NCBI RefSeq assembly: GCF_000012865.1
Contig: NC_007503.1
Location: forward strand, 1,648,001-1,712,000
DNA: 64,000 nt
Direction of reading: 5' to 3'
Source: Carboxydothermus hydrogenoformans Z-2901
GTDB taxonomy: Bacteria > Bacillota > Z-2901 > Carboxydothermales > Carboxydothermaceae
This document shows, piece after piece, positions 37,815 to 52,700 of the stretch; the first letter of the stretch is position 1; each line of letters starts with the position of its first letter. Both the position numbers and the translations under genes were made by a program. The notes under the pieces are model-generated. The model was not told the DNA's origin and searched no databases. It saw only the letters and a program-made list of their open reading frames with translations.

Positions 37815-37837
37815 TAGTTTTATCGTTAAAACAAAAG

Positions 37838-37948
37838 CCCACCCGGTTTACCGGATGGGCTTAAATCTCTACCAGTATGCAGTAAACAAAAAAGCTCCCA
37901 CTTATGGGAGCCTTTACTTTCAATGGTCGGGCTGGCGGGATTTGAACC
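37838..37948. repeat. Left island boundary: duplicated tRNA-Pro 3' end plus terminators
   Basis: 111 bp, 109 identical to 52590-52700. On the minus strand it starts at the T-arm of tRNA-Pro (GGTTCAAATCCCGCC), continues through the acceptor and CCA, then two terminator hairpins (GCTCCC..GGGAGC and GCCCATCCGG..CCGGGTGGGC). The other tRNA parts are absent. Looks like an attachment-site copy made by integration into tRNA-Pro. Confidence 0.8.
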
Positions 37949-37964
37949 ACACTTGTCAGATGGC

Positions 37965-39079
37965 TTAACCCTTTGATTTAATTTTTTCTAAATCAATAAT
38001 ATATATGGTTGTAGTCAGATCTATCTCATCAAATGTTGCCACAAGCTTTCCATTACATTCAATAATTGAATCAACTCTTATTTCAAGCGGTATCCATTCC
38101 AGTTTATCCATAGAATACAATTCTAAATCACTTTGACTGTCCATTACCAGTATATATTTTTTCCCTATCCTAAACCTGGTTATGTGACCCGTAATATTTG
38201 TGTATGTATTATTTTTAATATCATACTCTTCAAATTTATGAGAAGTCCAGTCTCTAATGTTATTAAAATTTAGGGAATAAATTTTATTCCCGGCAAATTC
38301 CGCATATCCCGGGTATAAATATTTCGACTCATAGGTTTTTATCTTGTTTGTTTTTAAATCATAAAACTTATAATATCCTTTACCATCGTACGAGTCAGTC
38401 CAAAGTATTTTGTTGTCATTAATGTAAACAAAATTGTTATATAATTCAAGTTGTCTAATTGTACCAACAACTTTTGTTTTGTGGTTATTTAAATTATATA
38501 ACACTACTTTTCCGTTAAAATACTTGCCATCGTAACGGGTGGGTTCAACCCAGGCAATAAAATCCTTATACAAAAAAGGTGAAATTGGGGTAAGTCCCTT
38601 AAAGGCCAATTTTGCAATTAATTTTATTTTTCCTGTTTTTAAATCCTTTACGTAAATTCGGTGAAGTAACCCGTCTGCAGTTGAGTCGGTCCAGATAAGC
38701 CAGTTGTCATTAATCATAAGATTTTGCACCGAAGGATCATCAAACTCCGAGGTAAATATTTTTTCCGTTTGCTTGGTTTGTAAATTATATTTAATGATAT
38801 TTTTTGCAAATTCTGTATTATCACTTACACACATATACAAATCATTACCCACTAAAACTACATCTCCGATTCTTCCAAAAGGAGGTTTTAGTGATATAAT
38901 CGCATCAGCATAAGGATTTTTGTTTTCTTCTATGGTTTCGTTGTCTTCTATATTAGATTCTCCTGTTGCCTCATTAGATGGAGGATTTTGGTTCACCACT
39001 TCGTTTTGAGAGCATCCGCTCCCTAAAAAGAAAATATAATTAATAGAAAAACTACTATTATTAGAAATCTTTTTTTCAA
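37965..39079 (-). CDS. Beta-propeller-like lipoprotein, copy 1, with frameshifted signal peptide
   Basis: The mature part (~350 residues, after GSGCSQNE) has repeated strands with WTDS/YNL/YDLKTNKIK patterns suggesting a beta-propeller. TTG at 39079, six bases after GGGGTGG, opens a typical signal (KKRFLIIVVFLLIIFSF) that hits TAG. One extra T in the T5 run (39025-39029 on the plus strand, A5) would join it to FLGSGC and the mature part. The in-frame alternative, GTG 39089, gives a poor signal peptide. Nearly identical to 48126-49240, including the frameshift. Function unknown; may be decayed or switchable. Confidence 0.7.
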
Positions 39080-39268
39080 ATTTATCCACCCCAAAAATTT
39101 ATAACATCGCTTGACGTGCAATTGATTGAGCCCAAGCTTTTGAGCTGTTAAAACCACAATAGCTGAACTTTCTTTTTTAAGTCGGCCGGAGCAAGGTTTA
39201 TCGTTATCCTGGTGATGGGAAAATCAAACCCAGAATTATTTGGAATATTTTTGAAAATTTTTGTTTAA

Positions 39269-39291
39269 TACCACTAAAATTCTGGTATAAT
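39269..39291 (+). promoter_or_regulatory. Promoter with inverted repeat for MNT gene, copy 1
   Basis: TACCA-CTAAAATTC-TGGTA overlaps a -10 TATAAT (39286-39291). The inverted repeat could be the operator for autoregulation by the MNT/HepT pair. The -35 is poor (TTGTTT at 19 bp). Confidence 0.5.
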
Positions 39292-39342
39292 AAAAAGAAA
39301 ATCTGGTGGTTTACTCTTTCACTTTAATTACAGGTGATTTAG

Positions 39343-39768
39343 ATGAAAAGGAATTTGAATGATATTAAAGGGCAAATTGAAGAATTAAAAAAATACTGTG
39401 AACAAAATAAAAACATTTTAGCACTATATATATTTGGATCTTATGGCACCGAGCTTGAACGTATTACCAGCGATATTGATTTTGCAATGTTATTTAGAAA
39501 TAGCCCTTCACTTTTTGAAGAACTTGAGATTGAATCTGACATCAGCCAGATTTTCGGACGGGATAACATTGATCTTGTCAACTTAAACAAAACCCCATTA
39601 GATATTTGTCATCAAGTATTATATACAGGAGACCTTTTATATTGTACTGATGAAATAGCCCTTGCAGATTTTAAGGAGAAAGTTTTTAATGCCTACGGAG
39701 ATTATGGAATTACATTAAAAAAATTTTATGATGATTATATGAAAGGATTGAGAGATAAATATGCCTGA
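39343..39768 (+). CDS. MNT-domain nucleotidyltransferase antitoxin, copy 1
   Basis: 141 residues with the minimal nucleotidyltransferase signature GS-x10-DxD (GSYGTELERITSDID). MntA antitoxins neutralise HEPN toxins by adding AMP to them. ATG 39343, weak site (AGGTGATTTAG). It overlaps the broken HepT gene by 8 bases (ATGCCTGA). Copy 2 is at 50148-50573 and is nearly identical. Confidence 0.88.
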   Translation: MKRNLNDIKGQIEELKKYCEQNKNILALYIFGSYGTELERITSDIDFAMLFRNSPSLFEELEIESDISQIFGRDNIDLVNLNKTPLDICHQVLYTGDLLYCTDEIALADFKEKVFNAYGDYGITLKKFYDDYMKGLRDKYA

Positions 39769-40034
39769 AATTGATAAAAAAAGGGTTCTTGATAAAATCC
39801 GAGTAATTGAAAACAGCTTATCCAAATTAAAAACCCTTGCTCAGCTCCCGGTAAATGAATTTATATCTAAAGGTGGAATATGACGCTAACATATATAAGT
39901 TAATGGCTAAATTTCGAAATCGCATAGTTCATTTCTATGATGAAGTTGATGACATCGAAGTTTACAGAATCTTACAGAGCAATCTTGGAGATTTTGATTC
40001 ATTTATCCTGCAAATAAACAATTTGCATAATTAA
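39761..40034 (+). pseudogene. HepT (HEPN) toxin gene, internally deleted, copy 1
   Basis: N-terminal part MPEIDKKRVLDKIRVIENSL runs to TGA after ISKGGI; the C-terminal part resumes in another frame with KLMAKFRNRIVHFYDEVDD, which contains the HEPN R-x4-H motif. The middle ~70 residues expected in HepT are missing. Total is ~90 codons versus ~135. The same break exists in copy 2, so the deletion predates the duplication. Confidence 0.8.
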
Positions 40035-40037
40035 TTT

Positions 40038-40115
40038 TCATCCCTGGAAGCCCGCGACCTCCACTATTTCCCCATTAATGCCGTTTAAAGTAACGGTATG
40101 TACTTTGGCAAGCAT
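40038..40115 (-). pseudogene. Truncated 5' end of a comM/yifB-like gene, copy 1
   Basis: ATG at 40115 follows AAAGGAGAAGATAA. MLAKVHTVTLNGINGEIVEV matches the N-terminus of ComM/YifB Mg-chelatase-like proteins, then stops after 25 residues next to the HepT stop. The counterpart at 50843 reads ..VTLNGINDEKVEVEVD. It is a fragment, not a functional gene. Confidence 0.65.
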
Positions 40116-40180
40116 TTATCTTCTCCTTTAGCCATTTTTAAATCTTATTAGGCATAGATCCCAAAATTCCTCTAAAAAGA

Positions 40181-40204
40181 AAAAACCTGCTTGAAAAAGC
40201 AGGT
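40181..40204 (-). terminator. Terminator after the small membrane gene
   Basis: ACCTGCTT-TTTC-AAGCAGGT on the minus strand followed by TTTTTTC. Confidence 0.65.
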
Positions 40205-40223
40205 AAAAAGCAGATTTAAAGAA

Positions 40224-40567
40224 CTATTGTAATCCAAAAAAATGATAAATTTTCCTCATAGGCAAGAATAGCCAGTAATCGTCAATCATTAGAATTGATA
40301 CAAACCACATGGCTAAACCCAAAAAGGATGCTAGGACGCTTTTTTTGAGCTGGTAATTAAACCCAAGGAATGACCAAATGTTAATGAAAGTGAAATCCAT
40401 ACAAAGCTTAAAAATAGCCACCATAACGAAAATCCTGTTAAATAGCTGACGTTGTAAAAAGCAAGAATTGATAGCCAGTACCAGCGAAAGTTTATGTGAA
40501 TTCCCAAAATTATACCAATTATCCCCACAATAATACTGGCGTAAGCTAAAAAACTTAGGAACTTCAT
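40224..40567 (-). pseudogene. Small polytopic membrane protein, frameshifted at an A7 run
   Basis: ATG at 40567 has TGAGGTGAT in place. The first frame gives 78 residues (AYASIIVGIIGIILGI.., FSLWWLFLSFVWISLSL) and stops at 40331. Inserting one A in the A7 run (40340-40346) continues into SVLASFLGLAMWFVSILMID and on to a stop at 40224, giving ~114 residues with about four helices. Function unknown. Confidence 0.6.
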
Positions 40568-40743
40568 TGTATATCACCTCAAAAAAAGAAAGGTAGTATT
40601 ATAAAAAAATATTACTTTGTAACTATCCAAAAACTTATTATTTATTTAAGGAAAATATATTTCACCATGAAGATTACCTTTAGCTTCTCCAAAATGATCT
40701 ATGTCCCACATTTATTTCTTTCCATTTTTAATTCTCCTTTTTT

Positions 40744-40971
40744 ATGTTATCTCTCGAACTACTATTCAATGAAATATCAGACTATTACGAGAAAAATAGC
40801 ATCATAATTACATCAAACCTGGAATTTAATAACTGGGACACTGTTTTTCTTGATGACCGGCTGGCAGCAGCCGCGATAAACCACCTTATTCACCATGCTC
40901 ATATCCTGGTGTTTAAAGGTGCAAGTAATAGATTTCAAATTGCACTCTCAAACTTAAATTTTACCTCTTAA
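40744..40971 (+). pseudogene. IS21-family IstB ATPase fragment
   Basis: 75 codons match the C-terminal part of IstB transposition helpers: NSIIITSNLEFNNWDTVF, LDDRLAAAAINHLIHHAHI, LVFKG. The Walker A and B regions and the istA partner are absent. Transposition relic inside the island. Confidence 0.75.
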
Positions 40972-41105
40972 GTATCTTTTTACGCTGGCAATGGCCAATA
41001 TTTTTCCGCATTTTTCATTGCCGTTTTAATGCATTTTTATATTGCCAATCATAATCAATAGTTTTGTTTTCGTATAAAACATATTAATTTGCATTTTTTT
41101 AAAAT

Positions 41106-41303
41106 TTAATAATGTGCTATTGTAGCAATAGCAATAGCAATAAATAGTAATCCTACAGTTGCTAACAATGTATTTAATCCTGTATTCATATTATTATTAT
41201 GAATTTTCTTTAAAATTATAACCATATTAATAACAAATAAAGCACACGAAACAGGTAAGAAATAAACTAAAAAAATTAAAAAATTTTTAATAAAACTATT
41301 CAT
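41106..41303 (-). CDS. Small two-TM protein
   Basis: 65 residues from ATG 41303, preceded by AAAGGGGAG. Two hydrophobic segments (FLIFLVYFLPVSCALFVINM and LLATVGLLFIAIAIATIA) with a short polar loop. No family recognised. Confidence 0.55.
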   Translation of the reverse strand: MNSFIKNFLIFLVYFLPVSCALFVINMVIILKKIHNNNMNTGLNTLLATVGLLFIAIAIATIAHY

Positions 41304-41426
41304 CACCAAACTCCCCTTTAATAACATGTTATATCACTTTAATTTGACTTTTACAAGTAAATTATACCATTTAACTTTTTAAAAAATAAATTGTTTTTAA
41401 TTGCAACCTTATAACATTTATTAAAA

Positions 41427-41456
41427 ATAATAGGAGCCAGTTAGGCTCCTATTATT
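41427..41456 (-). terminator. Terminator after the 297-residue secreted protein gene
   Basis: AATAATAGGAGCC and GGCTCCTATTATT pair around a four-base loop; TTTTTAAT follows on the minus strand. The stem overlaps the stop codon. Confidence 0.8.
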
Positions 41457-42345
41457 TAATGTAAAATTGAACATCAGTATCCGGAGCTTGATCAAAAGCA
41501 AAAGATGGAGAGACCGACATTGAACCGCTAAAAAGGTCAATACCAAATAAAAGCGCTACTTGCTGATGGGCATAGTGGCCAAAAGCATTTGAATAACCAA
41601 TAAAATTAGAAGGTGTAGCATTTACTTTATATACCATATAACCACGATTATTTTCAACTACATAACCACCATCACTTCCTAAAAGGTCAAAAACAAAAGC
41701 ATAACCATTTACATTTTTTGCATAAGCTTTATAATATGTTTTTGTTATAGTATCTACTTGCCATAAAGGAATACCATCATCATAAAACCATCGGTCATAT
41801 ATATATTTTAAATATTCTGAACCTGAAATAGTACTTGTAGAACTACTATGAGTTATAGCAACAACATCATTTAATGTCCAAATTGGTTCCGTTAACCATG
41901 TAAAAGAATTTTTAAATAAAAACTGTTTATTCCCTAAGTCTGTTACAGTGGTAGTTTGTGTCATCCATGAACAAGAATTTGTGTCAGTTCCACCACTAAG
42001 AATACTAATACTACTTAAACTAATTTTATTATTATCATTCTTTTTTATTCTTTTTTTCTCACGATAGTTAAATACTTCTTTGATTGCTTGATTTTTTGAA
42101 ATTTCTACAAAACCTTCTTTAGGAGTAACTCTGTAAAATTTTTGAACAGATGAAATAACTTTTCCGTTTAATTTCGAATATTCTTGATATTCTCTATCAT
42201 CAAAATTTGCTATCTCATCTTCGGTAAACCCCAATTCCTTAAAATGTTCTATTTCATTTTTAGTATAACTTTTTGCAAAAGCCACCCCTGAAAACAAAAA
42301 TGTTATACAAAAAATTATTGTAAATACAGTAATAAACTTTCTCAT
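41452..42345 (-). CDS. Secreted protein of unknown function
   Basis: 297 residues from ATG 42345 (GGAGGTG six bases before); an upstream open stretch is not used. Signal peptide (RKFITVFTIIFCITFLFSGVAFA), a charged ~90-residue propeptide-like region (FTEDEIANFDDREYQEYSKL), then a Ser/Thr/Tyr-rich domain. The organisation suggests an exported proprotein; no catalytic motif recognised. Transcribed from promoter cassette R1 with a ~250-nt leader. Confidence 0.72.
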   Translation of the reverse strand: MRKFITVFTIIFCITFLFSGVAFAKSYTKNEIEHFKELGFTEDEIANFDDREYQEYSKLNGKVISSVQKFYRVTPKEGFVEISKNQAIKEVFNYREKKRIKKNDNNKISLSSISILSGGTDTNSCSWMTQTTTVTDLGNKQFLFKNSFTWLTEPIWTLNDVVAITHSSSTSTISGSEYLKYIYDRWFYDDGIPLWQVDTITKTYYKAYAKNVNGYAFVFDLLGSDGGYVVENNRGYMVYKVNATPSNFIGYSNAFGHYAHQQVALLFGIDLFSGSMSVSPSFAFDQAPDTDVQFYIK

Positions 42346-42590
42346 ATAAACACCTCCTCTGGAGCCCATGTGTATTTTACCTAAAGCTAAGCTATCGGCG
42401 AAACGCACTCTTGTCAAACCAAAGCCGATGAAATGGTATGCTGGCTTGTCGAGGGCTACTTTTCTCTGTCCTTTTATCCGCAGTCGACTTCTTCGTCACC
42501 CCTAACCAACCATGTTCTTGCAAATGAAAATTAGGTAAACCAAGGAAAGCAGAATTTATTTTTTTGTCACTCCTTTACTTGCCATTTTCA

Positions 42591-42642
42591 GGAATGCATT
42601 CCCCTTATTTACTATACTGCACTTTTTTTTTTTTTTTGTCAA
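42591..42642 (-). promoter_or_regulatory. Promoter cassette R1 with A15 spacer and palindrome
   Basis: Minus strand: TTGACA (42642-42637), 20-bp spacer that includes most of an A15 run, TATAGT (42616-42611), then the palindrome GGAATGCATTCC (42602-42591) at the predicted start. The same cassette occurs at 44571-44628 and 52411-52463. Confidence 0.6.
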
Positions 42643-42792
42643 GACAATTTTTAAAATTTTTTGTTATTTATGTTAAGATTTTTCTTATATCTAAGCTTTA
42701 GATGTGCTCACTTTAACATGGCATTACAAAAGCTGATTATTCCAATCCCATGAAAAATATTAATTACACACAAAACAAGTACCGTTTTTCTG

Positions 42793-42917
42793 TTATATCC
42801 ATTCTTCTATACCGGACAGAATTAATTCTCTTATAAGTGTTGTTGTTGGTATGTTTAATTTTTTTGACCAGCTTTCTAATTTTTATAAAGCCTATCTTCA
42901 ACGCTGAATGTTTTCAT
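42793..42917 (-). pseudogene. Ribbon-helix-helix (CopG-like) protein, frameshifted at an A5 run
   Basis: MKTFSVEDRLYK, then in the next frame KLESWSKKLNIPTTTLIREL and ILSGIEEWI-stop. One extra A in the run at 42880-42884 joins them into a 41-residue RHH protein of antitoxin/CopG type. Upstream at ~43010-43090 a Cys-containing stretch in broken frames (FVCPVC, KSGCKAYD) may be another remnant. No partner toxin seen. Confidence 0.55.
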
Positions 42918-43261
42918 AGCGTTTAATACTACCCTGATTCCCGTGGATTTTTTACCGTATAGCTTAATTCTTTTTTGCTTACTATTTAAAAATCAAGATG
43001 CCTTCAGGTTTTTTCTCCGTATCGTAAGCTTTACAACCCGATTTGCACATACGGGACAAACAAATGTACCGCATTTTTGAAAGTCGTTTTAAATATCTAA
43101 CTGTTTTTCAAGATTTAATTCTTTATAAGGCGTGTATAAACCCATGCTGGTAGCGTTGTTTAAAACATTCATCTTCTAAGCATGATCCATGCTTGGACGC
43201 AACAAATATAAGGCTGTAGACAAAGGTCAATAGTCTTATGTGAATAGATTTTCTTTTTAAT

Positions 43262-43465
43262 TTAAAAACCATGTTCTTTTTTGTAAAAAATATAATAAAT
43301 TAAGCCAAATGGAGGAAAACAAAATGCAGCAAAAAATCCCCAAAATAGAGCGGTCAAAAAACTCCAATTATGTTTACGACAATCGATAAATACCAATATT
43401 CCTATGATGGCTATCAGTCCAATAACCATGATACTGAATAGACTTTTAATAAGATCATAGTTCAT
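43262..43465 (-). CDS. Small two-TM protein
   Basis: 67 residues: helix ~9-28 (SIMVIGLIAIIGILVFI), a CRKHNWSFL loop, helix ~40-60 with a PPFGLIYYIFYKK ending, resembling the PLDc_N/superinfection-type small membrane module. ATG 43465. Lies 33 bases after the secreted protein gene, probably the same transcript. Confidence 0.6.
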   Translation of the reverse strand: MNYDLIKSLFSIMVIGLIAIIGILVFIDCRKHNWSFLTALFWGFFAAFCFPPFGLIYYIFYKKEHGF

Positions 43466-43498
43466 ACAATCAACACGATCCTTTCCAACTCTTAAAAG

Positions 43499-44329
43499 TT
43501 AAATGAAATCTACAGTTACTTTATCCATATATATACCAGAATTGGTGTCATCCCAAAAATCAGAAATAACCATTTGTGGAGAATAATTTGATACGCTGGT
43601 ACTTAAATGATATCTCAAACAGTAGGTGTGTCCAGCCTGAAGCACTACATATATTGAAAGGTTAATAGGAACATTGGTGAATTGGGAACCGATGCCTATA
43701 GAATCATTCACCAAAAGGATAGTAGAACTTCCAATCTGACTGCCGGCAGTAACATCATAAACTGTAACTTTCACCTCTGCTCCAGCAATACCTCCCAAGA
43801 AGCCAGGCACAGTTGAACCGCTGTAACTCCCTTTGAAACGGATATAAGCACCTTTAGAACCCGCTCCAGACACATAAATGGTTTTGCCTATATAGGCCCA
43901 TGACGAAGCACTCCCTAGACCAGTAGTCCAAGTATGGGAATCAATAGTATAAGAAGAATAACGTTCTGAAGCACCTGCTATCCCAAACGTACTATGTCCT
44001 TTGTTACCCATATCAGCAACGTAGAATGTGGCATCCGAACCAAGATAAACAGTATTTGCACTCATGGCCGAAACCGTGTTTCCAGTGTTATAAGCTTCAG
44101 CTGCATTCATCTCTTTATCTGCCTGGGACAAGAGATAAATAACATCCATCTTTGCTCTTTTGGTTAGTCGATCTGGATCCTTTTTTAGTTGTTTAATTTG
44201 TTCCGCTGTCAAGTCCCTAGTTCCCAACTCAACTGACATAGGGTTTTGGTCAGCAAAAGACACAGAAGCAAATAATATTAAAATTAAAAATATAGTAAGT
44301 AACAATATTACCAGAATTCGTTTTTTCAT
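43499..44329 (-). CDS. Secreted protein with Ser/Thr/Gly-rich beta domain
   Basis: 276 residues. Signal peptide (KKRILVILLLTIFLILILFASVSFA), a charged segment (TAEQIKQLKKDPDRLTKRAK), then a beta-rich C-terminal ~190 residues (YIGKTIYVSGAGSKGAYIRF; AGAEVKVTVYDVTAGSQIG). No enzyme motif seen; could be a surface or extracellular-matrix protein. ATG 44329 after AAGGGGTGAT. Driven by promoter cassette R2. Confidence 0.75.
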   Translation of the reverse strand: MKKRILVILLLTIFLILILFASVSFADQNPMSVELGTRDLTAEQIKQLKKDPDRLTKRAKMDVIYLLSQADKEMNAAEAYNTGNTVSAMSANTVYLGSDATFYVADMGNKGHSTFGIAGASERYSSYTIDSHTWTTGLGSASSWAYIGKTIYVSGAGSKGAYIRFKGSYSGSTVPGFLGGIAGAEVKVTVYDVTAGSQIGSSTILLVNDSIGIGSQFTNVPINLSIYVVLQAGHTYCLRYHLSTSVSNYSPQMVISDFWDDTNSGIYMDKVTVDFI

Positions 44330-44570
44330 TTTTCTTTATCACCCCTTGAAATCAATTTTTATTTTATCCTTTTTAATTTTAATCCTTTTTTCTTCTGACT
44401 TTTCTAAATACCATTTAAAAGAATTCGGTCATACCCAAGCATTTTCAATTAATGTCCATTTTTCTTCCTGTTCCTTAGTCCAACGCTAAAAAAAAGATTT
44501 TAATTTCCGATTGAAAGATCCTCATTACCTGCCCGTTTTAATTATAACCCCTTCCTATATTCCATTTTCA

Positions 44571-44628
44571 GGAATGCATTCCCTTTTATTACTATACTGT
44601 ACATTTTTTTTTTTTTTTTTTTGGTCAA
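44571..44628 (-). promoter_or_regulatory. Promoter cassette R2 with A19 spacer and palindrome
   Basis: TTGACC (44628-44623), 26-bp spacer with A19, TATAGT (44596-44591), palindrome GGAATGCATTCC (44582-44571). The ~110 bp upstream (44640-44755) also match 52470-52580. Between here and the gene at 44329 nothing else is seen. Confidence 0.6.
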
Positions 44629-44782
44629 TGCAATTTTTAAACTTTTTTGTCAATTGAGAAAAATCTCTTTCCTCTGCACTAACGGCTACTGCTACCTTCG
44701 CCGTTCGGGATTTTTAATCGTGAGGCTGCAACCATGCCGGGAACACGAAAAAACCCACCCGGATATCCGGATGGGTTTTAAA

Positions 44783-44807
44783 TGGTCGGAGCGGCGGGAT
44801 TTGAACC
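44783..44807 (-). repeat. tRNA-Pro-like 3' end in mid-island
   Basis: GGTTCAAATCCCGCCGCTCCGACCA, 22 of 25 identical to the 3' end of tRNA-Pro(GGG); the CTCCGACCA ending fits a second Pro isoacceptor. A terminator hairpin (AACCCATCCGG..CCGGGTGGGTT) follows at 44751-44779. No complete tRNA can be folded upstream. Probable internal attachment-site scar. Confidence 0.6.
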
Positions 44808-44892
44808 ACCAAAGTAGTCTAAAACACCCCAAGAACTTTTTCAATCTATTTTCCAAACATAATTAACCGTTAAAACTTGCCAAGATCTATTT

Positions 44893-45930
44893 TTATTTCA
44901 AAGTTATTTTAAATAAATTTTTATAACTAAAAATATAGAGATTATTGGGATTTTCGCTGTCGAAAATAATTTCTTCCAAAATTCGCTCACTGTGTTCTAA
45001 CGATGCTACAATCTTGGCTTTATTCTCATAAATTTGATATAAACTAATTTCATAATGTGATTTGTTTATTTCCTTTAAAGTTAACACAAAAATTTTTTTA
45101 GTATCATCTCTTCCAATAATACCCAAAATTTCTTCTTCTTGATGTATTGCAGGAAGTTTTACTTCTTCAATTTTTCCTTCTCTCAAGCGATATAAACCTC
45201 TACCATCGATAAAATAAAGATTTTTTAAATCTACTGGATCAAAAGCAATGCCCCGGGGCTCACCATCTAAAAAAACATTTTGCCAATGTTTCCCTCCATC
45301 TAAGCTTTCCCAAAGCCCATTACGTGCTGTAATATAAATTTGTTTTTCGTTTAGGGGATTAATAAATAATTGGGTAGCATAAAAAATTTCCTGCACAGAA
45401 AATTTGAAATTCCAATGTTCTCCACCGTCTCGGCTAATATAAACTTTAACCCCTATAGGCTCTTTATTTTGAATAAGATAATAAGTATCAGGGCTTTTGG
45501 GGTCAAAAATTATTTTTTCAACTTTGCCTTGAAAAATTTTATGCCATTTTCCCCCATCTTTACTTTTATAAACTCCTTGTTCTCCGGTGTAAGAAATAAA
45601 ATAAATCTCCTTGTTATTTTTTGGGTTAATAAAAAACTGACCAAATTGATTTGGAAATTGTACCACCAAGTTATAATTCTTTAAATCCTTACTTTCGTAA
45701 AGGGATATGAACTTTTTCGGGTAATCCTGCCCTTGCTGTGCAAAAACCGTAGTTCCTCCTATCCAAAGAGGACGAAAAAACCCTTCAGGTAAAGGATATT
45801 GAGTTATCTTTACCTGAAAATTATCAATACGGAATAAGTTTTTCTTGTTTCGCTCCACATTCGGCCAACAACCACTTAAAATAATGGTAATTATAAAAAA
45901 AATCATCGTTTTCTTTAAAATTGACCACAT
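44893..45930 (-). CDS. Lipoprotein with BNR/Asp-box repeats
   Basis: 345 residues. Lipobox ILSGC (Cys ~21). Three Asp-box repeats (SKDGGKW, SRDGGEHW, SLDGGKHW) indicate a sialidase/Vps10-like beta-propeller. Asp boxes are structural; no sialidase active-site Arg triad can be claimed. ATG 45930 after AAAGGGG. Next to two other propeller-like exported proteins. Confidence 0.82.
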   Translation of the reverse strand: MWSILKKTMIFFIITIILSGCWPNVERNKKNLFRIDNFQVKITQYPLPEGFFRPLWIGGTTVFAQQGQDYPKKFISLYESKDLKNYNLVVQFPNQFGQFFINPKNNKEIYFISYTGEQGVYKSKDGGKWHKIFQGKVEKIIFDPKSPDTYYLIQNKEPIGVKVYISRDGGEHWNFKFSVQEIFYATQLFINPLNEKQIYITARNGLWESLDGGKHWQNVFLDGEPRGIAFDPVDLKNLYFIDGRGLYRLREGKIEEVKLPAIHQEEEILGIIGRDDTKKIFVLTLKEINKSHYEISLYQIYENKAKIVASLEHSERILEEIIFDSENPNNLYIFSYKNLFKITLK

Positions 45931-45999
45931 TTATATTTACCCCTTTACGGCATTCGCACCTGTTCTTACTGCTGCTGGTGCTGTTTACTTTAATTAATT

Positions 46000-47106
46000 C
46001 TACTTTTCAATATATAAAATAGAATCTCCATATCTTATTCCGAATTTTCCCTTATGTCCTTTATCTAAGACAAAAGGTTTTGAATCCATCGAGGTCATTT
46101 GCAAAAGCTTTGCCAACCTATTTGTCTTAATATTATAAATGAAGGCATTATGACTTGTTGAATCAATAAGGAGAATTCTGTCCCCTTGGATTTTATATGA
46201 AAAAAGATTTTTTACATATTTCGAAAAATCAATTTTATAAAATTTCCCATTCTTTTTATTAAGTATGAATAGCTCCTGATTAAAATATTTCCCTCTAAAT
46301 ATCACAAATTGTTGATTTCCCTCTACGCTAAAGGGTTCAAATTCCTCCGGTATTTTTATCGATAATGTATCTTTTTTATTACCTAAGCCCTCACTATGGA
46401 GATAAATATTACCGGCAGCATCTTTTTGAAGATAGGTTAAGTAATCTTCATTAATAATTGCCCGCAAATACGTATGTGGTATATAAATGTTGTTCCTTTC
46501 TTCCGTTGTATTATCATTGAAGTTATAAATCTTTAGTATTAATCCAGAAGTGTTTCTCTTATCTGGTTCAAACCATGTTAACAAATTATTATTAGCTTCA
46601 ATAAGTAATGGAGCAAAATTTATTTCGTAAATTTTTTCAAACTGTTTTTTGGTCAGGTCATACTTTATTATTCTGGTATAATTACCCTCTTCTTCCCAAA
46701 ATAAATAGTTTCCTGAAACCGAGAGTTCCGCAAGACCATGTAGCCCTTCCTTAGTTTCATACAAAACATTATATTGATGATTTTTTAAATTATAGTTAAT
46801 AACTTGTGTTTTTTTTACTTCACCAAAATTTCCATAGAAATCTACGGATACATAAACATTGTCACCATCAAAACAGTAATCTCCCATCGATGTATTGTTA
46901 GGCAGGTTAAGATCATTCAACGTTATCTTATTAAAATGATCAAGGACTGTACCTTTAGATAATTTTGGAGTTACCAAAATGAGATCATTCAGATTAAATT
47001 CGTATTTTCCATCTACATTTTTTGTTTTATGATTAGATAGCAATATAAAGAAAAAAAAGAACAATATTATTATACTGGTAAAAACAATTATAAGTTTTTT
47101 CGTCAT
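46000..47106 (-). CDS. Membrane-anchored beta-propeller-like protein
   Basis: 368 residues. N-terminal anchor (KKLIIVFTSIIILFFFFFILL) followed by repeated strand motifs (VINYNLKNHQYNVLYETKEG, FWEEEG, LLTWFEPDK, FIYNIKTNRLAKLL) similar in style to the duplicated lipoprotein genes at 37965 and 48126. Probably a distant paralogue. Function unknown. Confidence 0.72.
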   Translation of the reverse strand: MTKKLIIVFTSIIILFFFFFILLSNHKTKNVDGKYEFNLNDLILVTPKLSKGTVLDHFNKITLNDLNLPNNTSMGDYCFDGDNVYVSVDFYGNFGEVKKTQVINYNLKNHQYNVLYETKEGLHGLAELSVSGNYLFWEEEGNYTRIIKYDLTKKQFEKIYEINFAPLLIEANNNLLTWFEPDKRNTSGLILKIYNFNDNTTEERNNIYIPHTYLRAIINEDYLTYLQKDAAGNIYLHSEGLGNKKDTLSIKIPEEFEPFSVEGNQQFVIFRGKYFNQELFILNKKNGKFYKIDFSKYVKNLFSYKIQGDRILLIDSTSHNAFIYNIKTNRLAKLLQMTSMDSKPFVLDKGHKGKFGIRYGDSILYIEK

Positions 47107-47294
47107 TTCTTTAATTCTCCTTTTTTATGTTATTTAACAAATTATCTTCTCTGAAATTGCCAAAAATTTTTCAAAGTAAAGCTGCATGCTGAGGTGGTTA
47201 GGTTAGCAGCTCAGGATGCTGGTTTCTAATCGTGCCCGGTAGCACTTATTCGGCCGGTTTTCTTTTTGGCATTATTACTTATAATTTAATTATA

Positions 47295-47816
47295 TTAATA
47301 TTTTTCAGCTTTAATCTTAAAGGTCTGGTCGTTTCCAGTAGCAATCATGGAAATAGTATAATAAAATTGTTCTTTTGTTTTTTCATTAATTATAGGAATA
47401 ATTATTCCTTTTATCTGGCCTTCCTCTTCTTTAAATGTTATCTGTAATGGTTCTTTAAATATAAAATAGGGTTTATCGGCAGCTACATCTATTGCATAAA
47501 TGCCTCTTTTGCCAACGTACGCAACATTTGATCTTTTCCCTGTCTTTTTATCTTCATAGAGTACTATCAAATCAAAATTTTTATCATTATCGAAATCAAT
47601 TATTTTAGTATATAATATATTGCTATCTGGCCAAAAAGATTTAAAATCGCTTAAATATTTTTCTTCAAGTTTTCCATAATCTATGGCTAATACTGTTTGT
47701 TTTTGCTTATTTACAATTTCATTGTATGAAGGTTCTTTTTTAATATTATCTTTACATCCTGTTAAGAATAGGATTAAAATAACAATAAAAATTAACTTTC
47801 CTCTCAATTTAATCAC
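47295..47816 (-). CDS. Lipoprotein with calcium-loop-like motif
   Basis: 173 residues. Lipobox FLTGC; mature part contains IIDFDNDKNFDLIVLY, an FG-GAP/EF-hand-like Asp-rich loop found in secreted proteins, then beta strands. Follows a small membrane ORF by 15 bases. Function unknown. Confidence 0.7.
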   Translation of the reverse strand: MIKLRGKLIFIVILILFLTGCKDNIKKEPSYNEIVNKQKQTVLAIDYGKLEEKYLSDFKSFWPDSNILYTKIIDFDNDKNFDLIVLYEDKKTGKRSNVAYVGKRGIYAIDVAADKPYFIFKEPLQITFKEEEGQIKGIIIPIINEKTKEQFYYTISMIATGNDQTFKIKAEKY

Positions 47817-47831
47817 CTCAAAATACGGCTT

Positions 47832-47984
47832 CTATTTGTTAAATATATTAAGAATTAGATAATATCGTGGGAAAAATAATGCAACCTTTACACTTTCATC
47901 AAATCGGTATTTAATAATTAAGATACTTATAAGAAGTAAGGTTATTAAAATTAATAGTAGACCATGGCTTTTATTTAATTTCAT
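47832..47984 (-). CDS. 50-residue single-TM protein
   Basis: ATG at 47984 preceded by AGTGGTGAAATA. One membrane helix (LLLILITLLLISILIIK) with basic and aromatic tails. Lies just upstream of the lipoprotein gene at 47816, probably the same operon. Shorter than usual gene-calling limits. Confidence 0.5.
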   Translation of the reverse strand: MKLNKSHGLLLILITLLLISILIIKYRFDESVKVALFFPRYYLILNIFNK

Positions 47985-48125
47985 TATTTCACCACTATTT
48001 TAATTTTTTATGCTATGTTTTGAAACAATTAATCTGCATACCCATCGGATGATTGGATAGAATAGAAAAATTTATCCGAACCAAAATTAATTTTTTGTAT
48101 AAATCCATGCTACTTATCAGACGGC

Positions 48126-49240
48126 TTAACCCTTTGATTTTATTTTTTCTAAATCAATAATATATATGGTTGTAGTCAGATCTATCTCATCAAATGTTGC
48201 CACAAGCTTACCATTACATTCAATAATTGAATCAACTCTTATTTCAAGCGGTATCCATTCCAGTTTATCCATAGAATACAATTCTAAATCACTTTGACTG
48301 TCCATTACCAGTATATATTTTTTCCCTATCCTAAACCTGGTTATGTGACCCGTAATATTTGTGTATGTATTATTTTTAATATCATACTCTTCAAATTTAT
48401 GAGAAGTCCAGTCTCTAATGTTATTAAAATTTAGGGAATAAATTTTATTCCCGGCAAATTCCGCATATCCCGGGTATAAATATTTCGACTCATAGGTTTT
48501 TATCTTGTTTGTTTTTAAATCATAAAACTTATAATATCCTTTACCATCGTACGAGTCCGTCCAAAGTATTTTGTTGTCATTAATGTAAATAAAATTGTTA
48601 TATAAACCAAGTTGTCTAATTTTACTAACAACCTTTGTTTTGTGGTTATTTAAATTATATAACACTACTTTTCCGTTAAAATACTTGCCATCGTAACGGG
48701 TGGGTTCAACCCAGGCAATAAAATCCTCATACAAAAATGGTGAAATTGGGGTAAGTCCCTTAAAGGCCAATTTTGCAATTAATTTTATTTTTCCTGTTTT
48801 TAAATCCTTTGCGTAAATTCGGTGAAGTAACCCGTCTGCAGTTGAGTCGGTCCAGATAAGCCAGTTGTCATTAATCATAAGATTTTGCACCGAAGGATCA
48901 TCAAACTCCGAGGTAAATATTTTTTCCGTTTGCTTGGTTTGTAAATTATATTTAATGATATTTTTTGCAAATTCTGTATTATCACTTACACACATATACA
49001 AATCATTACCCACTAAAACTACATCTCCGATTCTTCCAAAAGGAGGTTTTAGTGATATAATCGCATCAGCATAAGGATTTTTGTTTTCTTCTATGGTTTC
49101 GTTGTCTTCTATATTAGATTCTCCTGTTGCCTCATTAGATGGAGGATTTTGGTTCACCACTTCGTTTTGAGAGCATCCGCTCCCTAAAAAGAAAATATAA
49201 TTAATAGAAAAACTACTATTATTAGAAATCTTTTTTTCAA
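48126..49240 (-). CDS. Beta-propeller-like lipoprotein, copy 2, with frameshifted signal peptide
   Basis: Differs from copy 1 (37965-39079) at only a few residues, for example a Val/Ala near residue 145, GTI versus SKI, and E versus G near residue 214. The TTG start (49240), ribosome site and the short T5 run (49186-49190) that puts the signal out of frame are identical. Identity extends upstream to about 49316 and then stops abruptly. Confidence 0.7.
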
Positions 49241-49440
49241 ATTTATCCACCCCAAAAATTTATAACATCGCTTGACGTGCAATTGATTGAGCCCAAGCTT
49301 TTGAGCTGTTAAAACCAGGGTTTTGCATAACTAATTATCTCCTTAGTGGTAACATTTACCGCATAAAAAACTTAAACATTTTTAAACTTTAGAATATCAA
49401 GGAAGGTCTCCAATATTTGTGGGTTAACACATCTCTTTCT

Positions 49441-50147: not shown

Positions 50148-50573
50148 ATGAAAAGGAATTTGAATGATATTAAAGGGCAAATTGAAGAATTAAAAAAATA
50201 CTGTGAACAAAATAAAAACATTTTAGCACTATATATATTTGGATCTTATGGCACCGAGCTTGAACGTATTACCAGCGATATTGATTTAGCAATGTTATTC
50301 AGAAATAGCCCTTCACTTTTTGAAGAACTCGAGATTGAATCTGACATCAGCCAGATTTTTGGACGGGATAACATTGATCTTGTCAACTTAAACAAAGCCC
50401 CATTAGATATTTGTCATCAAGTATTATATACAGGAGACCTTTTATATTGTACTGATGAAATAGCCCTTGCAGATTTTAAGGAGAAAGTTTTTAATGCCTA
50501 CGGAGATTATGGAATTACATTAAAAAAATTTTATGATGATTATATGAAAGGATTGAGAGATAAATATGCCTGA
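50148..50573 (+). CDS. MNT-domain nucleotidyltransferase antitoxin, copy 2
   Basis: 141 residues, differing from copy 1 at two positions seen (SDIDL versus SDIDF; NKAPL versus NKTPL). Signature GS-x10-DxD intact. Retained in frame in both modules although its toxin partner is broken in both. Confidence 0.88.
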   Translation: MKRNLNDIKGQIEELKKYCEQNKNILALYIFGSYGTELERITSDIDLAMLFRNSPSLFEELEIESDISQIFGRDNIDLVNLNKAPLDICHQVLYTGDLLYCTDEIALADFKEKVFNAYGDYGITLKKFYDDYMKGLRDKYA

Positions 50574-50839
50574 AATTGATAAAAAAAGGGTTCTTGATAA
50601 AATCCGAGTAATTGAAAACAGCTTATCCAAATTAAAAACCCTTGCTCAGCTCCCGGTAAATGAATTTATATCTAAAGGTGGAATATGACGCTAACATATA
50701 TAAGTTAATGGCTAAATTTCGAAATCGCATAGTTCATTTCTATGATGAAGTTGATGACATCGAAGTTTACAGAATCTTACAAAACAATCTTGGAGATTTT
50801 GATTCATTTATCCGGCAGATAAACAAATTGATAAATTAA
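50566..50839 (+). pseudogene. HepT (HEPN) toxin gene, internally deleted, copy 2
   Basis: Same structure as copy 1: an N-terminal piece, TGA after SKGGI, then a frame-changed C-terminal piece with RNRIVHFYDEVDD. The deletion junction is identical, with small drift near the 3' end. Confidence 0.8.
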
Positions 50840-52119: not shown

Positions 52120-52410
52120 AATATCCCCCCTTTAAATGTACATTCAAGGATTTCATTAATTAAAAAGTAGGATAATCACTTAAAAGCACCTTTCAAGTGA
52201 TTTAATGTAGCGATGAGTATCCCAGAGTACCACATCTTCAAAAATTATTTTGCTTTCAGTCGTGTAACTTTTTACATTCTATTGGAGGTTTTTATATTTT
52301 ACCAACCATTATTTTTTAGTAAGCTTTTTGCGTAAATTTTCCTTTTCTTTAATCTATTAACTCATTAATTTACTACCTTTAATTATACCACCCCTTATTT
52401 CCCATTATCA

Positions 52411-52463
52411 GGAATGTATTCCCTTTTCTTACTATACTCACACATTTTTTTATTTTTTGTCAA
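52411..52463 (-). promoter_or_regulatory. Promoter cassette R3 with A/T-tract spacer and near-palindrome
   Basis: TTGACA (52463-52458), 21-bp spacer (A6 T A7 tract), TATAGT (52436-52431), GGAATACATTCC (52422-52411). The tract is interrupted by one T, unlike R1 and R2. Confidence 0.6.
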
Positions 52464-52589
52464 TATAATTTTTAAATTTTTTTGTCAATTAAGAAAAATC
52501 TCTTTCCTCTGCACTAACGGCTACTACTACCTTCGCCGTTCGGGACTTTTACCCGTGAGTCTGTACCCATGCCGAGCGCACACAAAAAA

Positions 52590-52700
52590 CCCACCCGGTT
52601 TACCGGATGGGCTTAAATCTCTACCAGTATGCAGTAAACAAAAAAGCTCCCACTTACGGGAGCTTTTACTTTCAATGGTCGGGCTGGCGGGATTTGAACC
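52590..52700. repeat. Right island boundary: 111-bp repeat shared with 37838-37948
   Basis: Covers the 3' 25 nt of the intact tRNA-Pro gene and its two downstream terminators (GCTCCCGTAAGTGGGAGC followed by TTTTTTG; CCCATCCGGTAAACCGGGTGGG followed by TTTTTTG). 109 of 111 bases match the left copy. Confidence 0.85.

Follow-up and report, generated by a model that had tools for sequence, protein, structure and literature searches.

The window analysed here is a 64,000-nucleotide stretch of DNA from Carboxydothermus hydrogenoformans Z-2901. It contains two copies of a lipoprotein gene, referred to as A and B, both on the minus strand. The two copies have the same layout. The ribosome site GGGGTGG was located immediately 5' of a TTG start (39079 in copy A, 49240 in copy B), which opened an 18-codon hydrophobic signal peptide, LKKRFLIIVVFLLIIFSF, identical in both. 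This signal frame terminated at a TAG (39025-39023 in A, 49186-49184 in B). The GSGC lipobox and the mature domain lay in the neighbouring frame, with the same offset in A and B, and in neither Z-2901 copy were the n-region, the h-region and the lipobox Cys found in one frame. The first-pass annotation, which had described the ribosome site, the TTG, the signal running into TAG, the T5 tracts and the out-of-frame lipobox, was correct on all of these for both copies. When the rest of the genome was searched for the junction, no near match was found besides copies A and B. The features of the two copies are as follows.

37951..39156, minus: copy A of the duplicated lipoprotein unit, with 98.8% identity to 48112-49317
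48112..49317, minus: copy B of the duplicated lipoprotein unit
39023..39079, minus: copy A signal-peptide frame, LKKRFLIIVVFLLIIFSF and stop, from TTG start to TAG end
37965..39022, minus: mature lipoprotein frame of copy A, with the GSGC lipobox (Cys at 39014-39012) followed by the predicted beta-propeller domain; one base out of the signal frame
49184..49240, minus: copy B signal-peptide frame, TTG start, TAG at 49186-49184, identical to A
48126..49183, minus: mature lipoprotein frame of copy B, which is in synteny with the one gene of C. islandicus
39025..39029, minus: T5 tract, copy A; C. islandicus has TTTGTA at the same place
49186..49190, minus: T5 tract, copy B
39031..39032, minus: best-supported position of the missing base, copy A; gap between these two bases relative to C. 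islandicus
49192..49193, minus: missing base, copy B; the one-base gap against C. islandicus is the same as in copy A

Surroundings of the two copies
The copies lie in a 14.7-kb block whose genes are small and encode secreted proteins and lipoproteins. The block was flanked by a 116-bp direct repeat (37833-37948 and 52585-52700, 97% identity) consisting of the 3' end of tRNA-Pro and the downstream terminators. The repeats resemble the attachment sites of an integrase-less island. The corresponding interval in C. islandicus measured about 8 kb, with a single occurrence of the tRNA end. A TTTCAGGAATGCATTCCC...poly-T element was found in three dispersed copies (42582-42669, 44562-44655 and 52402-52490). 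It recurs in congeners and may be a small repeat that is mobile or regulatory.

Predicted fold of the mature domain
The mature domain was modelled with AlphaFold2. The model was almost entirely beta, with a mean pLDDT of 78 and a pTM of 0.78. Foldseek matched it to beta-propellers with E-values down to 1e-12, of which the designed protein Tako8 was the best, and the list also included BamB lipoproteins and 3s25. The mature part is thus predicted to fold as a beta-propeller, that is, as circularly repeated small beta-sheets. Sequence searches with the lipoprotein gave no Pfam or NCBIfam family above cut-off, no match among PDB sequences and no relative in viral contigs. A distant paralogue with about 26% identity is located at 46000-47106 and is intact in Z-2901. 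In C. islandicus and in other genomes, relatives of the propeller family (L034, L027, L028 and L032) were located directly behind a C39-peptidase-like gene, and no relative of the C. islandicus C39-peptidase-like protein was found in the Z-2901 genome. The propeller and the C39-peptidase-like gene are perhaps a conserved pair whose partner was lost in Z-2901.

The orthologue in C. islandicus is in one frame
Within the genus, the comparison was made with one congener that carries the gene. C. islandicus had a single, syntenic orthologue between folD and tRNA-Pro, and the order of its neighbours was that of copy B. The orthologue reads LKKRFLIIVVFLFIIFIFVGSGCSQKE in one uninterrupted frame, with n-region, h-region and lipobox Cys together. 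Its lipobox satisfied PROSITE PS51257 and failed the stricter G+LPP pattern, and the description of the Z-2901 signal as "ideal" was therefore overstated. The leaders of Z-2901 and C. islandicus were 96% identical at the nucleotide level. With a single-frame orthologue and this leader identity, the frame-split arrangement is not a product of chance. Measured against the in-frame C. islandicus gene, the one-base gap is a disabling lesion in the Z-2901 copies.

The position of the gap was then read from the leader alignment. The best alignment with one gap was ATTT-TCTTTTTAGGG against ATTTATCTTTGTAGGG, with 2 mismatches. When the gap was placed inside the T5 tract instead, at least 4 mismatches resulted. 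The T5 tract itself was absent from the C. islandicus leader (TTTATCTTTGTA). The lost base had been assigned to T5 in the first-pass annotation, and the alignment favours TTT(A)TC, upstream of T5.

More distant relatives were found in two other genera (genomes G176 and G226). Two relatives in G226 had in-frame N-terminal signals that were lipobox-like and ended in YGC or PGC, and the relative in G176 had an in-frame membrane anchor. Because these distant relatives have in-frame signals or anchors, export is the normal state of the family. The homologues were thus in frame and not, as had been envisaged as a refutation, all in the out-of-frame state. The lesion is derived in the Z-2901 lineage, because the C. 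islandicus orthologue is intact and T5-free and the distant relatives are in frame.

Divergence between the copies
Copies A and B were 98.8% identical over 1206 bp. The coding differences amounted to 12 nucleotides, seven nonsynonymous and five synonymous. These were unevenly placed. The 5' 506 bp contained no difference (P about 0.0004 under random placement), and seven differences fell within 76 bp (P about 0.0006). Such clustering is consistent with gene conversion, recombination or a very recent duplication. When the changes were polarised with C. islandicus, the derived state was in copy A for 9 of the 11 differing codons. At the site of copy A, C. pertinax had no lipoprotein gene, but both the nucleotidyltransferase and an upstream piece of 55 bp were present.

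No stop, no indel and no further lesion was found in the mature frames of A and B. This preservation had been regarded as unusual for dead genes. However, in neutral simulations with 12 substitutions the frame stayed free of stops in 54% of runs. The two open frames are also not independent witnesses, since the 5' 506 bp are identical. The dN/dS ratio between the copies, which had been suggested as a check, was 0.29 on only 12 changes and equalled the between-species value of 0.29, which would also fit continued constraint; however, the ratio of seven to five could not be distinguished from the neutral expectation of 77% nonsynonymous changes (P = 0.13). Because just over half of the neutral simulations were stop-free and the changes are too few, the open mature frames are uninformative. 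They neither support nor exclude function and are too young to show selection.

The neighbouring hepT genes carry a second shared lesion
An MntA-type nucleotidyltransferase gene and a broken hepT toxin gene lie beside each lipoprotein copy.

39343..39768, plus: MntA-type nucleotidyltransferase (antitoxin) gene beside copy A
39761..40034, plus: broken hepT A, with deletions of 138 bp and 11 bp when compared with the intact hepT of C. pertinax
50148..50573, plus: MntA-type nucleotidyltransferase gene beside copy B
50566..50839, plus: broken hepT B, in which both deletions match those of hepT A exactly

The hepT of C. pertinax was intact, and both Z-2901 genes carried these identical deletions. 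Since the toxin genes are broken behind both MntA copies, the antitoxins are orphans in Z-2901. Since hepT is broken alike in both copies, shared lesions are a property of the duplicated block. Given hepT next door, the shared lesion of the lipoprotein genes needs no special explanation.

Origin of the frame split
These results suggested that a gene for an exported propeller lipoprotein very probably suffered a recent one-base frameshift, which was doubled by duplication or gene conversion. The starting state would have been a normal lipoprotein gene with a beta-propeller mature part. After the split from C. islandicus, one base was lost close to where the signal-peptide region ends. Ribosomes that start at the TTG would then halt at the TAG immediately ahead of the lipobox, and export of the mature domain would cease. 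For the lesion to be in both copies, the inactivation may have preceded the duplication of the block, or gene conversion may have spread it. The mature frames would still be open since the event was recent. Recent shared inactivation had been the third option of the first-pass annotation, and the intact C. islandicus gene and the shared hepT lesion support it. Counting against it, neither mature frame has so far acquired a stop or an indel, and the dN/dS between A and B equal to the interspecies value would also be expected under continued constraint.

A programmed or leaky -1 slip at U UUU UAG, which would return some ribosomes to the mature frame and yield the lipoprotein, is very unlikely. 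The P-site UUU could slip back onto UUU with the stop in the A site, a normal lipoprotein would result, and a 6-bp stem directly follows the slip site in the predicted fold. However, this stem begins within the stop codon, without the usual spacer, is made of the lipobox codons and is also present in C. islandicus, where a frameshift is unnecessary and the slip site is missing. The RNA fold of the junction was unremarkable (z = -0.96). No canonical X XXY YYZ heptamer was present in the signal frame; the zero frame reads UUU UCU UUU UAG and leaves room for no more than one slip, in the P site on U UUU. The programmed frameshift proposed earlier therefore has no in-frame heptamer and no spaced stimulator, and its site is not conserved. 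A leaky, unselected trickle of frameshifting is possible. It seems quite unlikely that the two copies continue to yield some full-length lipoprotein through a leaky U UUU UAG, with the gene tuned down and not knocked out; if true, this would explain the preserved mature frames.

Phase variation would mean that slippage in T5, or in the neighbouring T4, toggles the lipoprotein and that the sequenced cells were off at both copies. As in contingency loci, the signal of an exported-protein gene is out of frame, and a single-base change in length would restore it. However, a T5 tract is short and commonplace: the 64-kb window has 456 A/T runs of exactly 5, and a further 297 exceed that length. The C. 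islandicus leader is tract-free and the missing base aligns outside T5. For both copies to be off, one shared event is simpler. A screen in Bordetella demanded A/T tracts longer than 7, shorter ones being relatively stable (PMC1891110). In Listeria, the A6 tract of inlA reverted at a rate that exceeded that of point mutation about 1,000-fold (PMC2831843), so rare reversion may be possible at the Z-2901 copies too. Without a long hypermutable repeat and with a tract not conserved in C. islandicus, the phase variation suggested in the first-pass annotation is highly improbable. Slippage in the upstream A7 tract was also considered and rejected, as it would swap the hydrophobic core of the signal for polar sequence.

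An error in the reference sequence or assembly is just as improbable. It might be suspected from a one-base difference in an AT-rich stretch, with a single genome of the species compared. However, the error would have to happen twice, as the loci differ elsewhere and unique sequence lies about 130 bp away, and the larger shared hepT deletions cannot be sequencing errors and show that shared lesions exist in the block. Least probable of all is a functional cytoplasmic or unconventionally exported protein translated in the mature frame from GTG 39089/49250: the frame is open from there for 374 aa and automatic annotation would probably pick that start, but this GTG overlaps with the ribosome site, whose spacing suits the TTG, no signal is present in the resulting N-terminus MDKFEKKISNNSSFSINYIFF, where hydropathy over 12 residues peaks at 1.17 compared with 3.9 in the real signal, and in C. 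islandicus the GTG frame never reaches the mature domain, so the start is not conserved.

Recent inactivation shared by both copies thus remained the preferred reading. It meant that a single lesion common to two paralogues can look like a regulated switch of frame. For annotation, both loci should be treated as frameshifted lipoprotein genes and not as GTG-started 374-aa proteins.

Comparison with known systems
The Z-2901 genes resemble frameshift pseudogenes of bacterial lipoprotein genes in the single-base deletion, the intact orthologue in a sister species, the open downstream frame and the decaying neighbours. They differ in that the lesion occurs twice, because the block was duplicated or underwent gene conversion. 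In the case of genes with a programmed -1 frameshift, such as dnaX and the IS3-family transposases, the likeness is that two frames could be joined by a -1 slip at a U-rich stretch; however, the in-frame slippery heptamer, the spaced stimulator and the conservation are absent in Z-2901. Contingency loci, the phase-variable genes of surface proteins, have in common with the Z-2901 copies that the reading frame of a surface-protein gene changes close to its 5' end. In contrast to these, the Z-2901 copies have no long tract, and their orthologue is tract-free. The likeness to beta-propeller proteins lies in the predicted propeller fold and in the signal or lipobox of the relatives, whereas the Z-2901 protein is about 8-16% identical to solved propellers.
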